The notes beneath the pieces are model-generated. The model searched no databases. It was not told where the DNA came from and was given only the letters and a program-made list of their open reading frames with translations. 64,000 nucleotides of DNA from Sulfurimonas hydrogeniphila. Lineage in GTDB: Bacteria; Campylobacterota; Campylobacteria; Campylobacterales; Sulfurimonadaceae. The position numbers and the translations under genes were made by a program. This document shows positions 52,421 through 55,893 of this stretch, in pieces. Within the stretch, counting starts at the first letter, position 1; the number at the start of each line of letters is the position of its first letter. Location of the stretch: the NCBI RefSeq assembly GCF_009068765.1, contig NZ_CP035534.1, positions 248,001 to 312,000 on the forward strand, read 5' to 3'.

Positions 52421-53197
52421 TTAAATCAAAGAACTCACAGCAAGATGTTTTGGTTCATTTTTTGCAACTTTTTTTTGACAGGAAAGAATTGTATTTATAT
52501 GCTCTTCACTTATGAATGATTTTTTCTCTGGAGTGATAAGCAAGGAGGCACTTGCTGTGAGAAGCGGAAACCTGCATGTTTGCTCTTTTCTGTTTTTGGA
52601 AATGATATAGCCATTCTCTTTATCTTTTTTGTTATAAAATTCTTTTGCCGAGGAAGCAAATTTTTCCAAAATATTTTCTATCATTTTCATGTCAAAAGAG
52701 TTATGGGTAAAATCTTTATTCTCCCAGGCAACAAAAAAATCATCACCTCCTATATGGGCTTTGAAAACATCTTTTGGCAGTTCTTTTCTCATAATATCTG
52801 CAAAAAGCTGAATAATCCTGTCACCGTTTCGAAAACCGTACACATCATTAAAGGCTTTGAAATTGTCGAGGTCAAAATAGCACAGAAGATAGGATGCTGA
52901 GGATTGGGATACTTTGTATATGTATTTTTCAATCATTGTGTTTCCGGGAAGTTTTGTAAGCGGATTTTGGTCTCTGGCCTGAATCATGTTTTCCTGATGC
53001 ATCATGTTGATAATTGCTTTTGCGGACAAAAATCCATAATAGCCTGAATTTTTTGTAATAATAATGCCTGAAGATTCAGGATTGTTCGCAAAAAGTTCTA
53101 TAAGGGTAGTGGTGTTGCTGTTGATATCTGCATGCCCGCAGGGGTGAAGCAGGTTTTCCAGTTTTGAGTTATTCTGTTCATTTAAGAGTAAAGACAT
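52421..53197 (-). CDS. CBS remnant plus GGDEF domain, 3' part of a split EAL-CBS-GGDEF gene
   Basis: A 258-residue product if translation restarts at the ATG at 53197. Residues about 30-85 look like the second CBS repeat (SSGIIITKNSGYYGFLSAK), followed by DQNPLTKLPGN and the GGDEF domain with active-site HIGGDDF. There is no RxxD inhibitory site before it. It is in the same frame as the upstream EAL reading frame, separated only by TAG SPYG, so the two are very likely one original gene of about 586 codons. It could be active, or a broken remnant. Confidence 0.8.
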   Translation of the reverse strand: MSLLLNEQNNSKLENLLHPCGHADINSNTTTLIELFANNPESSGIIITKNSGYYGFLSAKAIINMMHQENMIQARDQNPLTKLPGNTMIEKYIYKVSQSSASYLLCYFDLDNFKAFNDVYGFRNGDRIIQLFADIMRKELPKDVFKAHIGGDDFFVAWENKDFTHNSFDMKMIENILEKFASSAKEFYNKKDKENGYIISKNRKEQTCRFPLLTASASLLITPEKKSFISEEHINTILSCQKKVAKNEPKHLAVSSLI

Positions 53198-53209
53198 GCC
53201 GTAGGGAGA

Positions 53210-54181
53210 CTAAAGAAACTCTTTGATGTCAGATTCAAGCAATATTCCCACAGGCTCATTTTGGGAATTTACAAGAGGAACAATGGGAACACTCTGATTC
53301 TTTTTAAAATACTCTATGACCAGATTCATTTTTGTTTTAAGTTTTAAAGGCTGAATTTTGTCTATATTGTTTTTCAGTAAAATATTTTTGTCACTTATCC
53401 GTCTGTCAAACTTTATAATGTCAATGATATTTGTGTATTGCTGATAAATTTTTTGTGTATTTTTTGTAGGTTTCTGAATAAGATAGCCCTGTGCCAAATG
53501 GCAGCCGATGTCTTTACATGTAAGGTACTCTTCTTTTGTCTCAACACCTTCGGCAATCACCTTAATGCCCAGTTGAATGGCAAGATGTGTGATGTTGCGA
53601 ACCATAAGCTTTTTTTTCATATTGGTCGCAAGTCCCTGCAGAAAAAATCTGTCAATTTTGATGATATCGGGTGTGGAATCATAAAAAAGTTTGTATCCGG
53701 AATAGCCGACACCAAAGTCATCTATTGCAATGGAAAAATCTTCATTTTTATAATGCTGGAGTATTTTTTCAAGGTCAAATTCACTGGAAATTTCCTGTCT
53801 TTCCGAAATTTCAAAACAGAGATTTTCTTTCTTTATATTGAGCTCTTTGAGAATTTTTGTTGTATTTCCTGTAGAAAAATTTTCCATTTCCAAAACCCGG
53901 TTATCCAGATTATAAAAGAGCTTTATGTTCTTATAGCTTTGTATCTGTGTGTATTTTTTTAAAGCTTTTTCTCTCAGTGCCAAATCAAAAGAGTACAAAA
54001 GTTTCTCTTTATAAACAGCATCAAAGAGTGCAAAGATAGATTTAAATCCGACATCCTGAAAATTTCTCAACAGGGCTTCGACACCGTAGAGTGTTCCTGT
54101 ATGGATATTGATGATAGGCTGAAAAGCCACATCAAGAATTTTAAGATTGTTTTTCCAGTGTTGGGTGAGTTCATTATTCAT
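53210..54181 (-). CDS. EAL phosphodiesterase domain, 5' part of a split EAL-CBS-GGDEF gene
   Basis: A 323-residue product. The EAL domain (about 10-250) is catalytically complete: GVEALLR, CFEISERQ, IDDFGVGYSG, IKIDRFF and IAEGVET. It hydrolyses c-di-GMP. The C-terminus begins a CBS repeat (VPIVPLVNSQNEPVGIL...DIKEFL) and stops at TAG (53210-53212), after which the frame continues SPYG to the GGDEF ORF. Its ATG overlaps the stop of the acyltransferase gene. It may work alone after truncation. Confidence 0.88.
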   Translation of the reverse strand: MNNELTQHWKNNLKILDVAFQPIINIHTGTLYGVEALLRNFQDVGFKSIFALFDAVYKEKLLYSFDLALREKALKKYTQIQSYKNIKLFYNLDNRVLEMENFSTGNTTKILKELNIKKENLCFEISERQEISSEFDLEKILQHYKNEDFSIAIDDFGVGYSGYKLFYDSTPDIIKIDRFFLQGLATNMKKKLMVRNITHLAIQLGIKVIAEGVETKEEYLTCKDIGCHLAQGYLIQKPTKNTQKIYQQYTNIIDIIKFDRRISDKNILLKNNIDKIQPLKLKTKMNLVIEYFKKNQSVPIVPLVNSQNEPVGILLESDIKEFL

Positions 54182-55893
54182 TATTTTAGATATCTCTTTT
54201 TTTGGGATTCTTTTATTTTTGAAATGTCGACGATTATAAAGCTGTCTATACAGTTGGAAAAATCACTGTCTATGTTGTAGGCGCAAAATTGTATGCCGCC
54301 TTTTTCACACAGATCGGCATACTGCTTGTAAAGCGTTGGAATATTTGTATTGATACTGCCAAGCGCTTTTTTGAGTGTTTTGAAATTCTCTTTGTATTCC
54401 GGTGCACTGAACTCTTTTTTAAGATTTGCCATGAGTGTTTCATCTGTTTTAAAGTTGTAGGGATTTTTTGCCCTGACAAGATTTTGTCTGTCTTGAAAGT
54501 TTTGATCATAAAAGTATAAAATCATATCTTTGGCTGTTTTGGCATAACTTTCACTCAGTGAAACCGGACCGTACATGTAACGGATATGCGAATTGTTTTT
54601 GAGATATGCACCTATGCCGTACCACAAATAATCAAGCGCCCGGGAACCCCAGTATTTTGGCTGGACAAAACTTCTGCCGAGTTCTATGGCATCGGGGAGG
54701 TAAGACAAAAATGCTTCGTTGTAATCAAAAAGTGTTGTTGTATAAAGGGCATCAACGCCAAATTTTTTTATGATATCCGTACATTCGGCTATACGGTATG
54801 CCCCGACTATTTCAAGATCTTCCTCATCCCAGAGTATAATGTGTTTATAGTATCTGTCATATTTGTCTATATCTCTTTTTTTGTTGATACCCTCTCCGAC
54901 TTTGCGAAAGGAGAGCTCTCTGAGCCGTCCTATTTCATTGATGATAATAGAGTTGTTGTCATTGCTGCTGTAGAGATAAATTTTTTTTCCGTCTTTTGTC
55001 TCTCCGAGCAGTTGTGATGATTTTAACTTTTTTTTGAGATCCCGTCTGTCTTCGGGATGGGCAATTGCTTTTTGGGTTTCAAAATAGCTCTCATTTCTTT
55101 TGAGGGCATACAGATGTTTTTTATAGAGTTTGAGGAGTTTGTCCTTTTGTATCCCCTTTGGCGTGATGTTTTCATAAGGAATGAGTTCGCCTACAATCAT
55201 CTCAATAGCTTTGTGTTTTTGTTTAAACATTTCGTGTGCAAGAAGCAGGGCTGCAAGTTTTTTGTTCAGCGCTGATACGGAGTAAAAGGTTTTGGAATTC
55301 TTCCCTCCTATAAATACGGGAAGTATAGGAGCATTGCCTTTTTTGGCAAATTTTAAAAAACCTTTGTGCCAAACCTTGTCTTTTATTCCTGTCGGAGTAG
55401 CCCGGCTTACTTCGCCGGAAGGAAAAATGATGACAGCCTCTTCTGCATCAAGTGCCGCATATACCTGTGTAACGGCTTCTTTTTTTTGCCGTGCTTTAAA
55501 ATTGTTGACATTGATTAAAATATTTTTTATGGGAGTGATGACTTCTAAAAAATCATTTGCAACAACTTTTATATCTTTTCTGACATTACTGACAAGTTTG
55601 ATAAGTGCGAGTGCATCCAAAGAACCAAGCGGATGATTGGCAATAATGACAACGCGTCCGGAGGAAGGAATGTTTTGAAGATCCTTGTCGGAGACGGAAA
55701 AATCAAAGTTGAGGTATTGCAATGCTTCGTCTATAAACTCAAAACTGCCCAAATGCCTGTTCTTTTTGATAAATTCATTGATTTGTTTCTCATGGACTAC
55801 AGAATCTGCAAATTTTGAAATTGCACCTTTGATTACCCTGGAGTTTTTAAGTTTGGGGTATTTTTTTATAATCATTTTTTCAACATCAATCAT
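54181..55893 (-). CDS. Bifunctional acyltransferase, OlsF-like (ornithine lipid synthesis)
   Basis: A 570-residue fusion of a PlsC-like lysophospholipid acyltransferase and a GNAT-type (OlsB-like) N-acyltransferase. In the first half NHPLGSLDALAL is the HX4D catalytic motif and IFPSGEVSRATPTG the second PlsC block. In the second half (about 300-570) VGAYRIAEC and ELGRSFVQPKYWGSRALDYLWYGIGAYL match the acyl-homoserine-lactone-synthase-like OlsB domain. OlsF-type proteins make ornithine lipid without phosphate; family assignment is by memory. Divergent from the REC-GGDEF gene. Confidence 0.78.
   Translation of the reverse strand: MIDVEKMIIKKYPKLKNSRVIKGAISKFADSVVHEKQINEFIKKNRHLGSFEFIDEALQYLNFDFSVSDKDLQNIPSSGRVVIIANHPLGSLDALALIKLVSNVRKDIKVVANDFLEVITPIKNILINVNNFKARQKKEAVTQVYAALDAEEAVIIFPSGEVSRATPTGIKDKVWHKGFLKFAKKGNAPILPVFIGGKNSKTFYSVSALNKKLAALLLAHEMFKQKHKAIEMIVGELIPYENITPKGIQKDKLLKLYKKHLYALKRNESYFETQKAIAHPEDRRDLKKKLKSSQLLGETKDGKKIYLYSSNDNNSIIINEIGRLRELSFRKVGEGINKKRDIDKYDRYYKHIILWDEEDLEIVGAYRIAECTDIIKKFGVDALYTTTLFDYNEAFLSYLPDAIELGRSFVQPKYWGSRALDYLWYGIGAYLKNNSHIRYMYGPVSLSESYAKTAKDMILYFYDQNFQDRQNLVRAKNPYNFKTDETLMANLKKEFSAPEYKENFKTLKKALGSINTNIPTLYKQYADLCEKGGIQFCAYNIDSDFSNCIDSFIIVDISKIKESQKKRYLK

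Follow-up and report, generated by a model that had tools for sequence, protein, structure and literature searches.

An amber codon inside the CBS pair of an EAL-CBS-CBS-GGDEF gene of Sulfurimonas hydrogeniphila, probably an early step in a recurrent loss of the GGDEF arm

A gene of the EAL-CBS-CBS-GGDEF family in the deep-sea vent bacterium Sulfurimonas hydrogeniphila is interrupted by a single in-frame amber codon, and this interruption is probably an early step in a recurrent loss of the CBS2-GGDEF arm in which the phosphodiesterase is kept. The gene lies in the window, the stretch of 64,000 nucleotides analysed here (NZ_CP035534.1, positions 248,001 to 312,000), where one frame on the minus strand, 587 codons long with its terminal stop counted, runs from 54181 to 52421 with its domains in the order EAL, CBS1, TAG, CBS2, GGDEF (Table 1). 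A preliminary description of this DNA had reported a lone amber codon in an otherwise open frame and an ATG shortly downstream of it, and both are confirmed.

Table 1. Features of the interrupted gene and its upstream neighbour in the window.
Feature	Positions	Strand	Basis
TAG, codon 324	53210..53212	-	Codon comparison with nearest relative G108 (Tyr there)
ORF 1, 323 aa + TAG: EAL, then CBS1	53210..54181	-	ORF list, Pfam EAL
ATG (Met329), 12 bases past TAG, starting at 53197; possible reinitiation site	53195..53197	-	Sequence, codons of relatives
ORF 2, 258 aa counted from ATG: CBS2, then GGDEF (GGDDF motif)	52421..53197	-	ORF list, Pfam GGDEF
EAL domain, residues 16-238	53468..54136	-	Pfam, E 2e-46
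CBS1, about residues 262-323, ending right at the stop	53213..53398	-	Pfam, hhalign
CBS2-like repeat, about residues 330-403 (330-395 by a narrower delimitation)	52973..53194	-	hhalign against CBS1
GGDEF domain, residues 407-512	52646..52963	-	Pfam, E 2e-13
Acyltransferase/GNAT gene, upstream; its stop and the EAL start share one base (TAATG)	54181..55893	-	ORFs, Pfam

The two open reading frames represent one broken gene, because 38 one-piece homologues span the stop and at least 90% of the rows keep Tyr324 in a 39-row alignment of these homologues and the window protein, the latter with its stop read as Tyr. A chance pairing of two frames is ruled out, since the alignment of all 38 homologues runs through the stop over their whole length. 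By this end-to-end homology to one-piece members the gene belongs to the EAL-CBS-CBS-GGDEF family, and the continuous reading frame of such members is absent from the window gene, being broken at codon 324. A search of 135 genomes of the genus, with a match cut-off of E below 1e-60, returned matches in 75, most of them in one piece. Full-length identity to the window protein is 96% in the nearest relative, G108 (complete genome, 2,320,257 bases), and 48-79% in the other homologues; a scan of genome contigs added only one intact relative, which was already known. In G108 the gene is unbroken, has the same length and encodes Tyr at codon 324, where it differs from the window by one base. With one-piece homologues occurring throughout the genus as well, the stop is therefore, on comparative grounds, a derived nonsense change. 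This agrees with the preliminary description, which had proposed that a Tyr or similar codon became TAG. It had also considered homologues made up of two separate genes, and no evolved pair occurs among the 75 genus matches; independently damaged and EAL-only versions are seen instead. The junction, given there as DFKEYIYSPYG, is DIKEFLYSPYG or DIKDFLYSPYG in the closest homologues, and IKEYIYSPYG is found further out.

Both halves of the interrupted gene retain the signatures of their domains. All conserved EAL motifs are present (EALLR, YNLDN, EISER, DDFG, IKIDR, AEGVET and QGY, which are invariant alignment columns), and the GGDEF active-site motif takes the form GGDDF, invariant in all 39 aligned rows. 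The catalytic sites, which had been described as looking intact, are indeed unbroken (EALLR, DDFGVGYSGYK and HIGGDDF). Judged by these motifs, the EAL half is apparently a phosphodiesterase that would break down c-di-GMP, and the GGDEF half looks able to make it as a putative cyclase. There is no evident RxxD inhibitory site ahead of GGDDF in the segment 52646-52963.

The linker between the two domains is a tandem CBS pair, or Bateman module, an assignment that is firm at the family level. In the window protein alone the Pfam CBS match is weak (residues 288-323, E 0.008); among the family linkers 37 of 38 are matched, and profile-to-profile alignment of CBS1 with CBS2 gives an hhalign probability of 88 (E 2.9e-6). 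These two results place the stop between the repeats of one CBS pair. The break had been assigned to a CBS hinge, and the hinge position stands, with the correction that it lies inside the CBS pair and not at a border between EAL and a single CBS domain; each product would therefore carry half a Bateman module. A search of solved structures with the linker profile returned weak CBS matches only (best E 2.5e-4), and a structure prediction of the read-through protein from a two-row alignment was discarded at a pLDDT of 35. NCBIfam held no equivalog above its cut-off for this protein, and PADLOC found nothing.

The age of the stop can be approached through the selection acting on the two halves. 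Compared with G108, the window gene has a dN/dS of 0.080 in EAL and of 0.067 in CBS2-GGDEF, values that indicate strong purifying selection on both. For the second half, 4-6 non-synonymous and 10-20 synonymous changes are assigned to the window branch, against 37-74 non-synonymous changes expected if it had been unconstrained throughout that branch. The share of the branch free of constraint is at most about 6-27%, a range set by the split of unassigned changes. Because both halves show purifying selection, the stop is probably recent, which upholds the earlier remark that decay, if it is decay, is recent. The dN/dS pattern would fit a second half that is still made and selected equally well. 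Signs of decay are absent from CBS2-GGDEF itself, which would be expected too if this half were still made.

It is unlikely that the TAG codon stems from faulty sequencing or assembly, or from a mutation confined to the culture that was sequenced, even though the species is represented by a single assembly, PacBio SMRT is the only sequencing named for strain NW10 (PMC7952632), and every relative carries a sense codon at this position. Six neighbouring genes of G108 match the window at full length without a frameshift, and none of the other EAL or GGDEF domain matches in the genome contains an internal stop. Raw SMRT errors are dominated by indels, whereas the difference here is a substitution. 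The stop could be fixed only in the sequenced culture.

Translation beyond the stop was assessed in the complete genome of 2,342,011 bases. All 45 tRNAs were typed and none carries the anticodon CUA, and release factor 1 (RF1) is present, so the suppressor-tRNA readthrough that the preliminary description had listed as an alternative is not borne out. As to marks of amber recoding, there is neither a CUA tRNA nor an in-frame TAG conserved in the genus homologues; the stop occurs in no relative, which argues against conserved recoding. UAG is followed here by U, a context not known to be leaky. Readthrough is unlikely on these grounds, and it is highly improbable that a programmed or natural form of it keeps a low level of full-length enzyme, despite a frame that continues without gaps past the stop, the persisting constraint, and the full-length-sized bands reported for two nonsense-carrying Shigella DGC genes (PMC11327459).

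Reinitiation offers a different route to a second product. Termination at TAG followed by a restart at Met329 would yield EAL-CBS1 and CBS2-GGDEF proteins that rejoin through their CBS repeats or act apart. The ATG is close to the stop and in frame, as the preliminary description had pointed out in suggesting reinitiation, and the GGDEF half is still constrained. In addition, Shigella flexneri dgcM, dgcQ and others carry a nonsense codon with a Met soon after and give two products, c-di-GMP, or both (PMC11327459). Against this, no Shine-Dalgarno sequence precedes the Met329 ATG, with a duplex energy of +1.0 kcal/mol compared with -2.4 to -7.4 kcal/mol at seven nearby starts. The ATG is also ancestral, the same Met occurring in intact relatives, and was not gained along with the stop. 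No relative has an evolved gene pair, and recency explains the constraint equally well. Reinitiation at this ATG is therefore weakly supported but possible, given that stop-to-start coupling can occur without a Shine-Dalgarno sequence, and a functional split of this kind is rather doubtful. It is quite unlikely that one mutation has newly split the enzyme into two co-expressed one-CBS proteins, reassembling through the CBS pair or working independently; if true, this would be the very beginning of a two-component enzyme, in a genus that repeatedly breaks the gene at the same linker.

Early loss of the CBS2-GGDEF arm, the reading preferred here, has parallels elsewhere in the genus, where sister lineages, as judged from their genomes, have lost or damaged this half independently and several times. 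One case is G099, putatively S. autotrophica (2,153,198 bases), which encodes an EAL-only protein of 281 aa (L114, 3573-4418). Both genes share the locus, the upstream and downstream genes and the EAL domain, whereas the change in G099 is an in-frame deletion of about residues 266-572 (CBS-CBS-GGDEF) with the C-terminal tail KKHIAISSLI kept, and that in the window is a point nonsense change. Two further EAL-only forms, G120 and G155, fall in different clades of the EAL tree. Pairwise dN/dS for the EAL domain of EAL-only forms is 0.06-0.12 (about 0.09 for G120 and G155), rough values given that dS is high, which suggest that this domain is still under purifying selection.

Other relatives carry smaller lesions. 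In G004 (L041 end, L042 end) the gene is broken at about codon 320, some five codons short of where the window has its stop, by an interruption with inverted ends GAACCCTCTGAACAAA and a 4-base target repeat AATT, both contigs ending shortly inside it; it is read as an IS-like insertion sequence. In the complete genome G054 (L043), a 22-base deletion at about 320-327, in the same linker, removes the EYIYSPY stretch, and the gene is also frameshifted in EAL at about 173; it is an independent pseudogene. Both changes lie within about five codons of the window's stop site. Two adjacent working genes were considered for these relatives and rejected, since the G004 pieces flank the IS-like insertion at contig ends and the G054 pieces are frameshifted. 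G055 (L044) and G168 (L115) have almost coincident frameshifts at the HIGGDDF(F) active-site stretch of GGDEF, which are possibly genuine and possibly homopolymer errors of the draft assemblies, and EAL-side frameshifts occur in G169 (about 75) and G114 (about 220). Several of the comparison lesions come from draft assemblies, in which a frameshift may be an artefact.

On the tree, each of the 11 rows scored as broken calls for a change of its own, and supported branches make at least 8 of these 11 changes unavoidable. The G013 row reflects a contig end; the G013 match ends near that end and was left out as a break. Three of the eight small lesions fall within 9 codons at the linker, with a probability of about 0.03 under random placement in a test chosen post hoc; because the test was picked after the data and some lesions are in draft genomes, this clustering is not leaned on. 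Since G054, G169 and G114 are damaged in EAL instead, the bias toward GGDEF loss rests on few events.

Specifically, the proposed course of events begins with a single-base change that would have converted the conserved Tyr324 codon to TAG in an EAL-CBS-CBS-GGDEF gene of the S. hydrogeniphila NW10 lineage, after its split from the nearest sequenced relative. Translation would then stop at TAG and release a 323-aa EAL-CBS1 protein with conserved EAL motifs, and CBS2-GGDEF would be left unmade or be produced at a low level through unassisted reinitiation. In this way a bifunctional enzyme, presumably balanced through ligands bound by its CBS pair, would become a phosphodiesterase with half a Bateman module. 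The window gene would represent an early stage on a route whose end point, an EAL-only gene, has been reached at this locus in S. autotrophica. The genome holds a dense c-di-GMP network of 27 EAL and 48 GGDEF domain matches in 2.34 Mb, so one GGDEF domain could easily be spared.

Comparable c-di-GMP proteins and interruptions have been described in other bacteria. DdpB (BB2957) of Bordetella, a cytosolic protein, carries a pair of CBS domains between its GGDEF and EAL domains (PMC12805831). It resembles the window gene in the position of this CBS pair between the two c-di-GMP domains and in the same GGDDF variant, but its EAL motif reads ESL, whereas the window gene has EAL with all conserved motifs. 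DdpB is also described as one protein, whereas the window gene is interrupted; the likeness is one of architecture and motif. In Shigella flexneri, the degenerate diguanylate cyclases dgcE, dgcM, dgcN and dgcQ carry nonsense codons before GGDEF, and nonsense-carrying DGC genes in which a Met follows within a few codons yield additional proteins and in some cases c-di-GMP (PMC11327459). Like these, the window gene has its nonsense codon upstream of a GGDEF domain that is intact, and an in-frame Met nearby (TAG at 324, Met at 329). It differs in that the Shigella stops lie between an N-terminal sensor part and GGDEF, whereas the upstream product in the window is itself to all appearances a whole EAL phosphodiesterase; in Shigella the products have been demonstrated, whereas the window gene is known from sequence. 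Nonsense-interrupted c-di-GMP genes are thus already known and the mechanism here is ordinary. The case looks like ordinary loss at an early step rather than a new genetic device.

As a single case this is a recent nonsense mutation, and its value lies in the natural series that it joins: within one genus the bifunctional enzyme occurs whole, newly stopped, hit near the same linker by an insertion or by a small deletion, frameshifted in GGDEF, and fully reduced to EAL. Such a series makes it possible to test if losing the GGDEF arm is neutral or advantageous, and if the GGDDF domain has any cyclase activity worth losing.

The order acyltransferase gene, EAL gene is common to the window, G108 and G099, and the upstream acyltransferase/GNAT gene and the EAL gene are likely to share an operon. 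The acyltransferase + GNAT fusion overlaps the EAL start by one base; the junction reads TAATG in both the window and G108, and TGATG in G099. The EAL-only genes of G155 (L117) and G120 (L118) lie directly upstream of a DnaX-like gene, recognized from its translation by eye, which is possibly the usual neighbourhood of that sub-lineage.
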